NCBI GenBank assembly: GCA_903914415.1
Contig: CAIWOY010000111.1
Span: 1-33,372 of the forward strand
Length of the DNA stretch: 33,372 nucleotides
DNA from: an uncultured Phycisphaerales bacterium
GTDB taxonomy: Bacteria; Planctomycetota; Phycisphaerae; UBA1845; Fen-1342
Reading direction: 5' to 3'
Position 1 is the first letter of the stretch, and every line of letters begins with the position of its first letter. Made by a program: the position numbers and the translations under genes. The notes under the pieces were generated by a model that was not told the DNA's origin, did not search any database, and worked only from the letters and a program-made list of their open reading frames with translations. Positions 4,235 to 12,392 of this stretch are shown in pieces.

Positions 4235-6355
<2,121 letters not shown>

Positions 6356-6482
6356 CGTCTGCCTCGCCTCCCGCGTGAGGGCGCTCGTGGTCGCGGCCAC
6401 AAGCGCCGGCAACACCTGGGCGCAGAGCGGAGTCTCTCCGGTCGCCGTCTCCTCGCGCAGCGGCCGGCCCTGTCGCCTCTAT

Positions 6483-6531
6483 GGATTCTTCCCGCCACCC
6501 GTGCGAAGTCAACCGCGGCCGGCGTGAATCG
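6483..6531. repeat. dispersed repeat copy (GGATTC...GTCAACCGCGG unit)
   Basis: The 28 nt at 6504-6531 (starting CGAAGTCAACCGCGG) match 8816-8843 at 27 of 28 positions. The similarity continues upstream as GGATTC(T/A)TCCCGCC, so about 46-49 bp are shared. A diverged relative (16 of 20 bases) may lie near 16059-16078, upstream of the potassium-channel gene. The copies are intergenic and do not encode a conserved product. Confidence 0.75.
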
Positions 6532-6612
6532 GGACGGAGGGGTGGGTGCGGGGATCGGCGGCGAACGGCACGGTCTGGCGAAGCGTGACGCAGCCAGGTA
6601 GTGGCGGCCACA

Positions 6613-6679
6613 GCACGGCCCAGCGTCGCGGCGGCCACCTTGGCACCGCACAACGACGCTCGGCGACGCTGGACCGTGC
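6613..6679. repeat. long imperfect inverted repeat
   Basis: The left arm 6613-6629 (GCACGGCCCAGCGTCGC) pairs with 6663-6679 at 16 of 17 positions, and GGCGGC extends the pairing outward after a few mismatches. The loop is 33 bp. There is no T-run on either side, so a classical terminator is unlikely. It lies mid-way between divergent genes. It may be a structured 5' leader or a mobile palindromic element. Confidence 0.6.
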
Positions 6680-6959
6680 CACCGCCGCCCAAAGCGCAGG
6701 GCGTCCGCGGGAAGCGGGAGCGCTGGTTATCGGGCAACAGATCGCGCGGTTGGGCGGGAACGGCGTGACGGGTGACCGGCGCGCAGCGCGGTGACCGCGA
6801 CAGACAATACGGCAGAAATGCCTACGTCGTCGTGCGAGCACGGGGGTCAACTCCGGTGCTGCGTGGACGATAAGGCGCATAGTACCAGTCGCAGCCCCGG
6901 TCCGTACCCGGCGTGCGGCGTGCCGCTCGGGTCTGGTGTCCAAGCATAAGGAACCTCGA

Positions 6960-8585
6960 ATGTCAGGCTTTTTCAACTACGCACCCGTGCTCGTGCTGTG
7001 CCTCCTGATCACCGCCTGCTCGACCGTGCCGCCGGAACTCGGCGTGCCCGACGGCAGCACAACCGGTAACAGCACGAACGCGAGCACCGGCAATCCGGGC
7101 GGCGCGCACACGCTCAGCGGCACGATCCAGCCCGGGCAGGCCGCCAAGGCCCACGCGCGCATGGCCGACGAAACCTATCCCTACACGGTCGTGGTCCAGA
7201 GCGATCAGAGCGGCAAGCTCTACCGCGCGGAAACCGATCCCAACGGCGCCTTCAACCTGGCGCTGCCGGAGAGCGAGACCGGGAACACGATCACCACCAC
7301 GCTGCTCGGCCCGGACGGACGCGTCGTCGGGCCGGTCGTGCTCGGACAGAGCGGCGGCAACGGGATCATGGGCGCCGCCCTGGATCATGACGCGAGCCTC
7401 GGGACAATCGAGCTGCCGGACGATCCAACCAAGACCGCGATCGTGCCCGGCAGCGACGCCAATGTCACCGACATACTCGACCCGACCGTGACGGCGCGGC
7501 TCAGCAGCGACGGCGCGCCGGTCGGGCTGGCTTCGCACGGCAAGGGCAGCGCGGCGGAGACCCCCACCGAGCGCCCGGGGGCCAAGGCGGATGCCGACGG
7601 GGACGGGCTGATCGACGTCTTCGATGCGGACGACAACGGCAACGGCGTGGTCGACGACTTCGACCCGGCGACCCTGTCCCTGATCGCCGCCGCGCCGGAC
7701 TACCACGTCAACTTCTTCATGAACCTGAAGATCGGGACCGACTACGCCGCGACGTACTACACGGGCACGACCGCGGAGGTCGCCAGCCGGCTCAGCACGG
7801 ACACGGTGATCACGTTCGAGGTCATGACCGAGCCGGCCGCGACGCGCTCGATCACGGCCGCCCGCCTGCTCGAGACGCCGGGGCCGGCGTACCTGCCACT
7901 GACGACCAAGCTGGCAACCGGCGGCGGGACGCCGGCGTTGTGGAGGGACAGCGACTACGCATTCGGTCCGGAGACCGACCGCTACGACGCGTTCGTCGTG
8001 CCGAACGCGGCGATGGAGGCGGGCGACACGTTTACCCTGGAGGTCACGTTCAGCGACGGGACGACCGAGGACATCTCGCGCATGATCAATTACGTCTTCA
8101 AGAACATCCCGATGCTGACAAGGTACGGGTCGCCCGCAAGCCTGGCCGATTTCGACATGGGCAGCACGACCGTCAACGGCACGCAGCAACATCCGATTCT
8201 GTTTGACGGCACGCAGGACCTGGTGCTCGTTTTCCGGCCGCCGCCGGACGAGACCGGCGCCCAGATCACGGGCATGGACTACGGGTTCGCGGTGTTCTAC
8301 AACGGGGCCGGCGGACAGCTTAACGGGCAAATCGACGAGGCGGCGACGTGGCCAACGCGCGTGGCGGGCACCGGGACGCAGGGCACGACGTACACGGTGC
8401 TGGCGGCCGAGCTCGGCACGCTGTCGGCCGACGGCACATACACGGCGACACTGCCGAGGGGGCTGTTCGTGGACACGGTGTACCTGACCGGCGGCGGCAC
8501 GTCCGCGGTGGCGGATTACAAGATCGATGTCACGGCGTACTGCTCGAGCGGGAACGCGGCGATCATGCTGTCATACTCGAAATAG
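6960..8585 (+). CDS. lipoprotein with Asp-rich calcium-binding-like loops
   Basis: 541 aa. The ATG at 6960 has AAGGA 7 nt upstream; an in-frame ATG at 6936 lacks this support. The N-terminus is a lipoprotein signal with lipobox ITAC (Cys20), so the mature protein is probably membrane-anchored outside the cytoplasm. A Thr/Ser/Asn-rich linker follows. Residues 45-95 resemble a carboxypeptidase-regulatory-like beta fold (VVVQSDQSGKLYRAETDPNG). Around 211-235 are two consecutive Asp-rich loops (DADGDGLIDVFD, DADDNGNGVVDDFD) typical of thrombospondin type-3/EF-hand-like calcium sites. The remaining ~300 residues are beta-strand-rich with no family I recognise. It stands alone between repeat-rich spacers. 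Function is unknown; an extracellular structural or adhesion role is only a guess. Confidence 0.88.
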   Translation: MSGFFNYAPVLVLCLLITACSTVPPELGVPDGSTTGNSTNASTGNPGGAHTLSGTIQPGQAAKAHARMADETYPYTVVVQSDQSGKLYRAETDPNGAFNLALPESETGNTITTTLLGPDGRVVGPVVLGQSGGNGIMGAALDHDASLGTIELPDDPTKTAIVPGSDANVTDILDPTVTARLSSDGAPVGLASHGKGSAAETPTERPGAKADADGDGLIDVFDADDNGNGVVDDFDPATLSLIAAAPDYHVNFFMNLKIGTDYAATYYTGTTAEVASRLSTDTVITFEVMTEPAATRSITAARLLETPGPAYLPLTTKLATGGGTPALWRDSDYAFGPETDRYDAFVVPNAAMEAGDTFTLEVTFSDGTTEDISRMINYVFKNIPMLTRYGSPASLADFDMGSTTVNGTQQHPILFDGTQDLVLVFRPPPDETGAQITGMDYGFAVFYNGAGGQLNGQIDEAATWPTRVAGTGTQGTTYTVLAAELGTLSADGTYTATLPRGLFVDTVYLTGGGTSAVADYKIDVTAYCSSGNAAIMLSYSK

Positions 8586-8708
8586 CGGGCACGAGCGCGG
8601 CTCGCGCGCACTGCGCGTTCGGGTTCGGATCGGCCGCCGCGCTTCGCCAAGTACCGTCTCATCCTGGGCGGCGGCCGGGCCTGACACCGCTGCACTACAA
8701 GCAGTCGT

Positions 8709-8843
8709 GATCTTTGCGCGCCGCGCAGATTCCCCGGCAGTCTACGGCCGACACGGGGTCGGCCGCTACATTGGGTTGCGGACACAACCCGCGCTGGGGA
8801 TTCATCCCGCCCCCCCGAAGTCAACCGCGGTCGGCGTGAATCG
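8709..8843. repeat. composite cluster of dispersed repeat modules
   Basis: Four modules stand end to end. (1) 8709-8738, starting GATCTTTGCGCGCCGCGCAG, is 28/30 identical to 26625-26654. (2) 8744-8771, the GGCCGACAC-GGGGTCGGCCGCTAC unit, recurs at 26660-26686, 26693-26721 and 12585-12613. (3) 8771-8796, GGGTTGCGGACACAACCC plus GCGCTG, is related to 26721-26746. (4) 8798-8843 matches 6483-6531. Modules 2 and 3 are themselves palindromic. The cluster fills most of the 288-bp spacer after the lipoprotein gene, and no gene is seen there. Confidence 0.8.
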
Positions 8844-8873: not shown

Positions 8874-9425
8874 TCATGCTTTCGTTTGCTTGCACCCGCC
8901 CATCCACGGACAGCTTTCCTTCTGCGGGCACTTCGCGCAGCCGTAGAGGCGCGATACCAGCGGCAGGATCACGAACGAGTTGACCGCGAACGCGAGCAGG
9001 AGCGCGAGTAGCGGCCACGATAGGTGGCGGGCCAGCCCAATGCCCGCCGCAATGGGCGGCGCGAACCACAACGGGACGATGACCGGGATGTGCCGGCGGA
9101 ATTGTTGCCGGAAGCGGTCGCCGTCCTGTTTTGTGCGGAGCTTCGGCGCGATTTGTCCGTAGCCGCAGGGACACAGCCGCGTGTCGAAGAAATGGCAGTA
9201 CGGGCAGACGAAGGCGATGATCCACAGCGCCCCGCCGACGCCGTAGGCGGCGTAGAGCGCGGCCGTCAACGCGCCCCAGGTGCCACCGCCAAGCGCGGTC
9301 CAGAAGAGACCCGCCCCCAGCACGAGCATGGCGACGTAGGGCAGGTTGTCGAGCAGGGCCTGCGCTTGCGTCACGCGCGGCAGCGGGCAGGCTTCCGGCG
9401 TCTGCGGTTCCGGGATGGGGTCCAA
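8874..9425 (-). CDS. Cys-rich four-helix membrane protein
   Basis: 183 aa if it starts at TTG 9425, which has GAGAGG 6 nt upstream and lies 26 bp past the preceding stop. An ATG at 9500 would overlap the upstream gene by 49 bp. Four hydrophobic helices are visible (about 29-47, 50-73, 112-131, 135-157). Cysteines cluster in two soluble patches: C74-x2-C77 with C85-x-C87 (VCPYCHFFDTRLCPCG), and near the C-terminus C163-x2-C166-x5-C172 and C178 (CAKCPQKESCPW). Eight cysteines in two sets of four suggest two metal sites, iron-sulfur or zinc, but this is inference. I do not recognise the family. The tight pairing with the C_GCAxxG_C_C gene suggests a shared redox or electron-transfer job at the membrane. 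Confidence 0.82.
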   Translation of the reverse strand: MDPIPEPQTPEACPLPRVTQAQALLDNLPYVAMLVLGAGLFWTALGGGTWGALTAALYAAYGVGGALWIIAFVCPYCHFFDTRLCPCGYGQIAPKLRTKQDGDRFRQQFRRHIPVIVPLWFAPPIAAGIGLARHLSWPLLALLLAFAVNSFVILPLVSRLYGCAKCPQKESCPWMGGCKQTKA

Positions 9426-9451
9426 GCTGAGCCTCTCGTCCTGCGTCCCGG

Positions 9452-9907
9452 CTACATCGCGTCCAAGATCTCCGCCGCGTCGCGGACGAACTTCGGGCAC
9501 ACGGTCTGGTGCACCTTGCGGTCCTGGGCCTGTTGCCAGCCCTCCGGCGTGCTGAGGTCACAGCCGAGGAGGTCGCGACAGATGATCGACGCGTTGCGGA
9601 CCTTGAAACGCGCCACGAAGTCGCGGACGCGTTCGTAGAGGGCTGCCTTCGCCTGTGGGTCCGCCGTGGTCGCACCGCCATAGCGGAGACCGAGGACCAT
9701 GATCGCCCCCGTGACCGCGCCGCAGGTTTCACCCAGCCGCCCGATCCCGCCGCCGAACGGGGCCGCGAGCATCAGGCAGCGCGCCTCGTCGAGCCCCTCA
9801 TCGGGACCGTAAGCGGCCAGGACGGCCTGGGTACAGTTGAATTGTCGGGCGAAGAGGTCCAAAGCGTGTTCAGGCTTGGTCATCGGGCACCTTTCAGACA
9901 ACGGCAT
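9452..9907 (-). CDS. C_GCAxxG_C_C family protein
   Basis: 151 aa from ATG 9907, which has a strong AGGAG 7 nt upstream. An internal ATG at 9883 with AAAGG also fits and gives 143 aa starting MTKPEHALD. The family signature is clear: FNCTQAVLAAYG near the N-terminus, then the glycine-rich core FGGGIGRLGETCGAVTGAI, and conserved cysteines toward the end (IICRDLLGCDLSTPEG, then VCPKFV). The family is defined by these invariant cysteines. It is usually annotated as a putative redox protein and often sits beside electron-transfer genes; its reaction is unproven. It is the first gene of a pair with the Cys-rich membrane protein 26 bp downstream. Confidence 0.93.
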   Translation of the reverse strand: MPLSERCPMTKPEHALDLFARQFNCTQAVLAAYGPDEGLDEARCLMLAAPFGGGIGRLGETCGAVTGAIMVLGLRYGGATTADPQAKAALYERVRDFVARFKVRNASIICRDLLGCDLSTPEGWQQAQDRKVHQTVCPKFVRDAAEILDAM

Positions 9908-10050: not shown

Positions 10051-10088
10051 AAGGTGATCGTCGTGTGTGCCCCCTATTCGATCACCTT
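10051..10088. terminator. possible stem-loop spanning the SIR2-like gene stop
   Basis: AAGGTGATCG (10051-10060) pairs perfectly with CGATCACCTT (10079-10088) around an 18-nt loop. The SIR2-like stop codon (10074-10076) lies inside the loop. No clear T-run follows on the minus strand, so termination is only one option. Confidence 0.4.
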
Positions 10089-11411
10089 TGGATGGCGCTG
10101 CGTGGGCGTGTCTGCTGTCGGGCTGCCGGTCGCGCGGTCGACGTCAGTGCGTTCGACGGCCGCCAGGTAATCGGAGATCTTGTCAAACGTCACGATCCCC
10201 GCGTCAGGCGCACTGAGGGCGTTCTGGACCCACGGGGAGAGACATTCTCTCAATCTGCCCGCGACCTTTCCATCCGGGTTGACGACGCAGATCTGCCCCG
10301 GAGGCGCCATCTCCGTGCCTATCCAGTCCTCAGAGGCGGCGCGTAACAGCGAGCGCAGGTGCATATCGGTCGGGGCGAGCGATACGCCAATGAAGACCCA
10401 GCGGTTCGCAAGCCGAAGCGAGTGATAGGCCTGCAGCCACATGAGCCTGAGCTTGGGAAACCGGTCAAACGGCTTCGTCGCGACTGGTGGGATTACCACC
10501 GTGTCCGGAGTGTTTCCGCACAAACCACAATGCAGTTGCTCCGCGCCATCCAGATTGTCGCTGCGCCGCCGGTCGGTGGACTCGATGTACCGGTGATTGG
10601 GGCATGCCGGTTCCGAGCACGCCCGCCAGTTCACAGAGCCGTGGAGCTTCGCCAAGAACCCGCCGCGGCGCGGTTGGAAGCGTCCGAACATGGTCCCCCC
10701 ACCGCCGGAATACGATGCCCCCGAAGAGCCTATGTATAGATCCAGATTCTCGAGGCGCTTGTCGCGGTCTCCAGGTCCGCGTTCCCGGTAGGTAAGGTGA
10801 CGCTCGATAATGGTGTCATAGTTGAGCGTTATGATCGAATCCCGCCGGCGCACGGTGTGCAGCAAGCGGCGCACCATGGGGCATTCAGCGGGGCATTCAG
10901 CGGGGCATTCAGCGCCCGGCACCTCCACTATGCGCAAGCGGAGACAGATGTACAGAAGCAGGAGTTCGTAGTCGCGCCGCAAGTCCGCACCCTGCGGCAG
11001 CGGGGGCAAAGGGATGTCGTCCGCGGCGGCCTGGATAGACGGATCGGCGGGCAGAAGCAGTCGATCGACGGTCGCGACGTCACGGTCGCTCCATGCCCGG
11101 CCGACGCCTGCGGTGCGCTCGAATAGATCGCTCATCACCGATTCGAGGTTCAGCGAGCCCAGGTCGCCGTACCGTTCCTCCAGCCGCGAGAGGAGCTGCG
11201 GCAGCTCTGGATGGTCAGCAACAGCGATCGTCCCTTTCCTGTTGGTTACGTCCTGGCAGTAAATGCGCGCTTCGCGCGACAAAAACCCCGTGGCGACCGG
11301 AAGCTTGTAGGCGCTCTCATTGCTGAATCCAGCGCCCAGGACGTAGCAGATTTGTTCGTTGCCCGATTGCTCCGCGATACGCTTCAGGTCGCTTGGTTTG
11401 GACATCGGCAT
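10074..11411 (-). CDS. SIR2-like NAD-binding protein, defence type
   Basis: 445 aa. The ATG at 11411 has GGAGG 6 nt upstream, which beats the GTG at 11432. SIR2-fold motifs appear in order: GAGFS (residues 26-30, NAD loop), ITLNYD (194-199), LHGSVNW (256-262), and WVFIGVSLAPTDMHLRSLLR in the C-terminal part. The TLNYD and LHGS pattern is that of the SIR2_2-type proteins found in bacterial antiphage systems, where NAD depletion causes abortive infection. Residues C265, C270, C295 and C298 form a probable zinc ribbon. A triple AECP repeat (167-178) lies between domains. No partner such as an Argonaute, HerA or DSR gene is adjacent, so it would be a stand-alone SIR2 protein. Codon use looks less GC-saturated than its neighbours, which suggests transfer. 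Whether it is an NADase or a deacylase cannot be decided here. Confidence 0.87.
   Translation of the reverse strand: MPMSKPSDLKRIAEQSGNEQICYVLGAGFSNESAYKLPVATGFLSREARIYCQDVTNRKGTIAVADHPELPQLLSRLEERYGDLGSLNLESVMSDLFERTAGVGRAWSDRDVATVDRLLLPADPSIQAAADDIPLPPLPQGADLRRDYELLLLYICLRLRIVEVPGAECPAECPAECPMVRRLLHTVRRRDSIITLNYDTIIERHLTYRERGPGDRDKRLENLDLYIGSSGASYSGGGGTMFGRFQPRRGGFLAKLHGSVNWRACSEPACPNHRYIESTDRRRSDNLDGAEQLHCGLCGNTPDTVVIPPVATKPFDRFPKLRLMWLQAYHSLRLANRWVFIGVSLAPTDMHLRSLLRAASEDWIGTEMAPPGQICVVNPDGKVAGRLRECLSPWVQNALSAPDAGIVTFDKISDYLAAVERTDVDRATGSPTADTPTQRHPKVIE
10878..10913. repeat. three tandem 12-bp repeats in the SIR2-like gene
   Basis: GGGGCATTCAGC-type units repeat three times in frame and encode AECPAECPAECP on the minus strand. 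The length is a multiple of three, so expansion or contraction keeps the frame. The repeat falls in a loop between the NAD-loop half and the TLNYD motif. Confidence 0.85.
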
Positions 11412-11565
11412 CGTCGGCCTCCAGGCAGGCACCGTTCTTTGGCGGCGTCATCATATCGCTGATGCGCCTCGGAATCCCGCCCGATGGCCGCCGACTAAGG
11501 TCGGGAATTCACGCGCGGCTTCAGGCGTGCGCCCCGTCGGGGCGTCGGCCGGCGCGAGTTGAAAG

Positions 11566-11803: not shown

Positions 11804-11860
11804 CTTTCTCTCAATCTTCGCCCACGTGTCCTTTCGCGTCCCCATGCGGCCGAAGCTCGA
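11804..11860 (-). pseudogene. duplicated glnS 3' end (remnant 2, diverged)
   Basis: About 43 of 57 bases match the glnS tail, concentrated in a core around TCTTCGCCCACGTGTCCTT. One minus-strand frame reads [12 protein letters not shown], but the zinc-ribbon membrane protein uses a different frame here and takes its last ~16 codons (HGDAKGHVGED-stop) from this segment. It is in the same orientation as glnS and remnant 1. Confidence 0.65.
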
Positions 11861-12392
11861 CGGCCGCCTGGGCCGCCAGCAGGCCGTCGAGCGTGTACTG
11901 GGTACCGCATTCCGGGCAGCGCGCTTCGTGCAGTCCGCGTAGGTCGTAGCCGCAACGGGGGCACGGCAGCCTGGCGATATGCCGCGTCGGCCCGCCAGGC
12001 CACAGGTACGCCGTCGCACCGATCCACACGGCCGCCGCACAATCGCCGCCGAGGTCCCGGGGATGCACCGAGTGAATGTCGCCGCCGAGCAAGGCGTCGT
12101 TGCCCAGCACCACCAGCCAGGCTGCGGCCATGGCGCCGGCCGCCGCCAGAATCGTCAGACCGACGCGGGCCGCGGTCCAGTGCACGGACGTCCGCCACAC
12201 AGCCCACCAGCCGATCATCAGCACGCCGGCCGCCAGGGCGTTGGACAGCAGGAAGGGTGTGCCGGTTTCGTCCTCGTATTGCCACAGTGGGCGTTCCTGG
12301 AGCAGGATGTAGGCCTGATCGCGTACAAACCACGCGGTCAGTACGACCGCCAGCGCCAGGAAAACACGCGAAAGTTGAGTGGACATCGCCAT
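11811..12392 (-). CDS. membrane protein with C-terminal CGYDLRG zinc ribbon
   Basis: 193 aa from ATG 12392 (a second ATG two codons later is equally possible; the ribosome site is weak). Three to four hydrophobic segments are visible (about 8-24, 48-66, 76-97, 117-132). They are followed by a cytoplasmic-type zinc ribbon with C144, C147, C159 and C162 (CPRCGYDLRG...RCPECG). This ribbon recurs in many planctomycete membrane proteins of unknown function, including another in this window (31746-32582), where it is N-terminal. The last codons lie in DNA that also matches the glnS 3' end, so the C-terminus may have been replaced by recombination. Function is unknown. Confidence 0.8.
   Translation of the reverse strand: MAMSTQLSRVFLALAVVLTAWFVRDQAYILLQERPLWQYEDETGTPFLLSNALAAGVLMIGWWAVWRTSVHWTAARVGLTILAAAGAMAAAWLVVLGNDALLGGDIHSVHPRDLGGDCAAAVWIGATAYLWPGGPTRHIARLPCPRCGYDLRGLHEARCPECGTQYTLDGLLAAQAAVELRPHGDAKGHVGED

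Follow-up and report, generated by a model that had tools for sequence, protein, structure and literature searches.

In the available text of one source, PF09719 (C_GCAxxG_C_C) proteins are described only as 'putative redox-active' (PMC13188914), and the available text of a second places one of them in the iron-dependent stimulon of Bacteroides thetaiotaomicron, together with an Nramp transporter (PMC10434189). For the PF09719/TIGR01909 family, no membrane partner of the kind reported here is named in those parts of the literature that were accessible. A presumed kinship with split-Soret cytochrome c found no confirmation and was left out of the argument. Among membrane-bound systems, NapGH/NosR-type membrane ferredoxins are similar to the gene cluster associated with the Cys-rich membrane protein of this study, since in that cluster a Tat ferredoxin is joined by a NapH-like protein (TIGR02163, below cut-off). 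In contrast to these systems, the cluster also encodes NuoEF, a flavoprotein of GltD type and PQQ-like propellers, and the Cys-rich membrane protein has no match to a Fer4 or NapH model. In two phyla, NADH-linked flavoprotein modules of the NuoEF/GltD-like type occur beside the membrane gene. Here, NuoEF is fused and carries an extra ferredoxin domain, a [2Fe-2S]/GltD-like protein is present, and the membrane family is added in 2 of the 13 clusters read, several others being cut by contig ends.

The analysed DNA, referred to as the window, comprises 33,372 nucleotides of the 4.7-Mb genome of an uncultured Phycisphaerales bacterium (G000). Its nearest named relative is the Phycisphaerales MAG L010, with a membrane protein of 93% identity. 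The PF09719 gene (9452..9883, minus strand) encodes 143 amino acids, or 151 with the alternative in-frame ATG upstream at 9907. Downstream on the same strand follows the gene of a four-helix Cys-rich membrane protein with 183 amino acids (8874..9425, minus). The distance of 26 bp given in the preliminary description was confirmed, provided that the membrane gene starts with the TTG at 9425. This inferred start is preceded by a purine-rich stretch within the gap (9426..9451, minus), which differs from the congener L010 at 2 of 26 positions; the other in-frame start, a GTG at 9500, would overlap the PF09719 gene. Both genes look coding, because the codons changed with respect to L010 are mostly silent (27/40 and 26/39 in the two genes) and third codon positions change most in both. 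The alignable block of window and L010 (8798-9899) takes in both genes, with non-aligning stretches on either side. In the window's genus the two genes are probably co-transcribed.

The flanks of the pair were also inspected. On the upstream side of the PF09719 gene, a SIR2-like protein (10074-11432, minus) is encoded in the window; its SIR2_2 match is weak (20.7 bits, below the cut-off). The corresponding slot of the congener (L003 35-742) holds a different protein, SIR2-like by eye; PADLOC gave weak SIR2 matches for the window's protein and none for the congener's. Further upstream, a small protein (11811-12392, minus) is hydrophobic in its N-terminal half and carries a double zinc-ribbon-like CxxC pair towards the C-terminus; none of its Pfam matches reaches the cut-off. 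The stretch 6527-8798, not alignable to the congener, holds a large lipoprotein-like gene (6936-8585, plus) and separates the gene pair from a thioredoxin-like gene of the DUF255/DsbH type (4235-6415).

The assignment of the soluble protein to the C_GCAxxG_C_C type was recovered with 114.3 bits for PF09719 (cut-off 27) and 80.4 bits for TIGR01909 (cut-off 47.4). Judged by its sequence, it is an ordinary family member. C17, C54, C102 and C129 are invariant in 17/17 aligned sequences, and the central hexapeptide reads CGAVTG. No related solved structure was found by sequence, nor did a fold search give a usable match. A PF09719 profile search of solved structures returned mostly TALE-type repeats through summed weak repeats, which were taken as chance. 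PADLOC matched neither this protein nor the membrane protein. One PF09719 relative was seen on viral contigs (IMG/VR; L102 2609-3423, plus), beside a regulator of ArsR type by eye.

For the membrane protein, the preliminary description knew of no named family, and this still holds: the window protein has no Pfam or NCBIfam match, no match is common to the 15 members, and no characterised family that would contradict the claim was found. The scan of genome contigs yielded 15 loci from at least five named phylum-level groups, with titles of Phycisphaerales, other Planctomycetota, Verrucomicrobiota, Thermoplasmata, KSB1 and Sumerlaeota, and two without phylum name. A frameshifted copy (L024) was excluded from the alignments; its genome (G408) is counted in the sets of 20 and 15 genomes given below. 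The family is rare. It was detected in 3/101 genomes around the window, in 2/294 across the window's phylum (own genome included), in 5/40 of the phylum of the Sumerlaeota genome G406 and in 8/82 (5 strong) of the phylum of G398. Neither viral contigs nor plasmids gave a relative, and no description of the family or of the electron-transfer cluster was found in the open-access literature searched. As far as the searched libraries go, this is an undescribed membrane family.

The window protein contains cysteines at positions 74, 77, 85, 87, 163, 166, 172 and 178, and a ninth at 13. In the alignment of this protein with 14 others (A4, 15 rows), C74, C77, C85, C87, C163, C166 and C172 are invariant (15/15), in the contexts CPxC...CPCGYG and CxxCPQ...CPWM. 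The first cluster, CPYC-x7-CPC-GYG (residues 74-87; 9165..9206, minus), lies at the end of helix 2 and the second, CxxCPQKxxCPW (residues 163-172; 8910..8939, minus), at the end of helix 4. C178 (8892-8894, minus) occurs in 4/15 members and is not conserved. Hence, the two sets of four cysteines described before are present in the window protein, but for the family the sets are 4+3; apart from this eighth cysteine, the features described earlier are in the main borne out. A search of two further phyla added relatives, among them a distinct branch (L053, L054, L059) and the remote proteins L061 and L062. In these last two, the most distant relatives, C87 is lost; six cysteines, with C163, C166 and C172 among them, are invariant over 18 rows. 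His112 was considered as eighth ligand, being present in 15/15 rows of A4, but was dropped, as it is N in L053, L054 and L059 and non-His in L061 and L062. In L061 (956-2106, minus) the gene of the remote relative is followed, after about 60 bp, by a DUF3795 gene, which again encodes a Cys-rich soluble protein.

Four hydrophobic helices, as previously noted, were found again in the predicted model (mean pLDDT 82; helices 28-44, 49-76, 102-133 and 137-165). In most members, net positive charge is found in the loop that joins helix 2 to helix 3 and at the C-terminus; the two remaining loops have a near-neutral charge. Both Cys clusters probably face the cytoplasm, because the cluster-bearing loop and the C-terminus are the positively charged parts (positive-inside rule). 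In the search of solved structures, the best Foldseek match (E=1.1) and the best Z of 5.5 (rmsd 6.8, 153 aligned) are values that common helical arrangements also give, and no structure or profile match indicated what the cysteines bind. No VKOR profile matched the window protein; one relative reached E=0.76 (Pfam) and one E=0.013 (NCBIfam). With a further family profile the window protein gave no match up to E=10 and 1/15 relatives a match at E=0.0026. Fer4 and NapH/MauN profiles were not among the families matched by any of the 15 members, and no FeoB gene was recognised beside the window's membrane gene. A known small membrane protein shares the position of a Cys cluster directly after a transmembrane helix. 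It differs in that there is no model match and that four helices and two clusters are present here.

The preliminary description had proposed a pair of partners, against which the lack of a conserved neighbourhood would speak; taken literally, this lack was found. Adjacency of both genes was restricted to the window and the congener L010, hence to one genus; outside this genus conserved adjacency was sought and none was found, and the neighbours differ at the other loci. In the 15 genomes with the membrane gene, PF09719 was present in nine and without match in six, and apart from L010 no PF09719 locus overlaps the fetched flanks of the membrane gene. The two genes are about 9 kb apart on one contig in G461, and on separate contigs in G011, a member of the window's family. 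A weak PF09719 match (L036) has only a short stretch in common with L019, on both strands. Clustering of neighbours within about 10 kb revealed no family common to distant loci except the membrane protein and reading-frame shadows. One oxidoreductase-like family is common to four membrane-gene loci, at varying distances.

At the level of genomes, the two families do occur together, as could be shown by the comparison suggested earlier. PF09719 was detected in 10/13 genomes with the membrane protein vs 23/210 without it, pooled over three groups (stratified exact p=2e-7, kinship of genomes uncorrected). The single groups gave 3/3 vs 8/98 around the window, 5/5 with a strong membrane match vs 12/77 in the phylum of G398 and 2/5 vs 3/35 in the phylum of G406. 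In the phylum of G398, the weak membrane matches G498 (with stops), G505 and G476 were counted as absent. With weak matches as present the same test gave p=7e-7, and without the congener G001 p=1.6e-6. A threshold of at least 100 bits for 'canonical' PF09719 (8/13, p=2e-9) was set after the scores had been seen, and no conclusion rests on it. As a control in the phylum of G398, the general anaerobe marker [FeFe] hydrogenase showed no such link (4/5 vs 42/77, p=0.27). The counts are not independent, because the genomes are MAGs, many of them of related species, and bins may be mixed.

Recurrent neighbours of the membrane gene were identified in two phyla. The gene belongs to the same series in L020 (Planctomycetota, same sequence as G308) and in L080 and L063 (G454, phylum of G398). 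The first part of the series consists of a PQQ-like propeller, an NHL propeller, a Tat-signal 4Fe-4S protein, a NapH-like protein and a membrane-anchored propeller. In the second part, fused NuoEF with ferredoxin domain and a [2Fe-2S]/GltD-like flavoprotein are followed, in G454 after a glycosyltransferase, by the membrane protein, directly before an ATPase of LolD type in both series; in L020 an FtsX-like permease comes next. Homologues of the two clusters are 28 to 59% identical. Another locus, L093, has the order NuoEF, GltD-like, propeller, glycosyltransferase and LolD, with the membrane gene elsewhere in that genome. The cluster around the membrane protein appears to combine known electron-transfer parts in a new way.

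A search with the single NapH-like protein gave a match in 18/20 genomes with the membrane gene and at least 236 bits in 16/20, including the window's own (contig C267). The surroundings of this gene were read in 11 of these genomes: 10 showed the Tat ferredoxin and 10 showed all or part of NuoEF, and in the others contig ends interrupt the stretch. In the window's genome PQQ-like, Tat ferredoxin, NapH-like, NuoEF and GltD-like genes are located outside the window on C267 (L091, 1-10897). Relatives of this cluster occur in MAGs of several phyla, and its NapH-like protein scores too low for the cut-off of any named family. Mixing of MAG bins is the main risk. The main cluster was seen in G000, G001 and G011, three separate genomes from the window's family, which speaks for genuine carriage by Planctomycetota.

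Furthermore, the membrane protein and PF09719 form a three-way association with the NapH-like protein. In the phylum of G398, 15/82 genomes have a NapH-like protein of at least 437 bits, including 5/5 with a strong membrane match (p=1.1e-4), and PF09719 is present in 10/15 genomes with the NapH-like gene vs 7/67 without it (p=1.7e-5). Counting the three weak membrane matches as present gave p=7.6e-4 for PF09719 and 4.4e-3 for NapH-like. The PF09719 gene was not found inside any fetched cluster. Within the 15 NapH-like-positive genomes, PF09719 was detected in 5/5 with the membrane protein vs 5/10 without it, which is not significant (p=0.08). Given this weak residual link, the co-occurrence of membrane protein and PF09719 may be due in part to lifestyle or to the cluster.

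Two explanations concern the pair itself. Both proteins could form a dedicated two-protein redox module, for which the 26-bp gap, the common strand, the alignable block over both genes in two congeners and the co-occurrence in genomes can be cited. This reading is weakened by the missing synteny, as the adjacency is limited to one genus and the genes of G011 are on separate contigs. Moreover, PF09719 is without a match in six of the 15 genomes that have the membrane gene, and we judge such a module to be quite improbable. The same missing neighbourhood, with variable insertions on both sides of the pair, would be expected if unrelated genes of anaerobes had come together by chance in one genus and co-occurred through a common lifestyle; the hydrogenase control, which showed no comparable link, speaks against this explanation, and it appears unlikely. 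With regard to function, the cysteine clusters could hold zinc or iron in a role in structure, in sensing or in the insertion of metal (Fe-S assembly or metal trafficking), and the protein would then carry no electrons. CPxC and CPCG resemble zinc knuckles, and two of the 15 members weakly match the zinc-finger model TIGR04104 (best E=0.002). However, these matches are absent from the window's own protein, and the recurrent neighbours are redox proteins of the NADH/Fe-S type, not metal transporters. A role in metal binding alone is regarded as somewhat unlikely.

The surest statement is that the membrane protein presumably presents cysteine ligands at the cytoplasmic surface. Beyond this, we prefer to see it as a membrane protein that carries Fe-S or metal on its cytoplasmic side and is accessory to an NADH-linked Fe-S route, with the PF09719 protein as a possible helper; this tentative reading has a probability of roughly 0.4. 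The unnamed four-helix protein would have both ends in the cytoplasm, and its clusters CPxC-x7-CPC (after helix 2) and CxxC-x5-C (after helix 4) would bind an Fe-S cluster or another metal at the cytoplasmic face. It may serve as accessory electron-transfer or Fe-S/metal-handling part of a route made up of fused NuoEF, [2Fe-2S]/GltD-like flavoprotein, NapH-like membrane ferredoxin, Tat-signal ferredoxin and PQQ-like propellers. In this route the NADH-oxidising flavoprotein set would act with Fe-S proteins that span the membrane and end in the periplasm, with electrons presumably flowing in this direction. The PF09719 protein may hand thiols, metal or electrons to the membrane protein, if the two are in contact. 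A direct pair is possible, but we do not favour it over a role of both proteins in one pathway.

The position of the membrane gene in an NADH/Fe-S gene cluster was unexpected and lends weight to the redox reading. Of the membrane electron-transfer or metal module proposed in the preliminary description, the electron-transfer part thus gains from the cluster in two phyla, but the likely partners are others than the PF09719 protein, whose gene adjoins the membrane gene in one genus only. A more far-reaching version, which we consider rather improbable, is that the membrane protein is the Fe-S membrane part, facing the cytoplasm, of an undescribed NADH-to-periplasm route in anaerobic Planctomycetota, KSB1, Sumerlaeota, Verrucomicrobiota and others, that the PF09719 protein is its soluble helper, and that both genes were split from the main cluster into an operon of their own in the window's genus. 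In general, the results add a well-conserved, unnamed membrane family with cysteine clusters. They tie this family and the widespread, poorly understood PF09719 proteins to a concrete NADH/Fe-S cluster in uncultured bacteria, and the 'putative redox protein' becomes a testable question with named partners.
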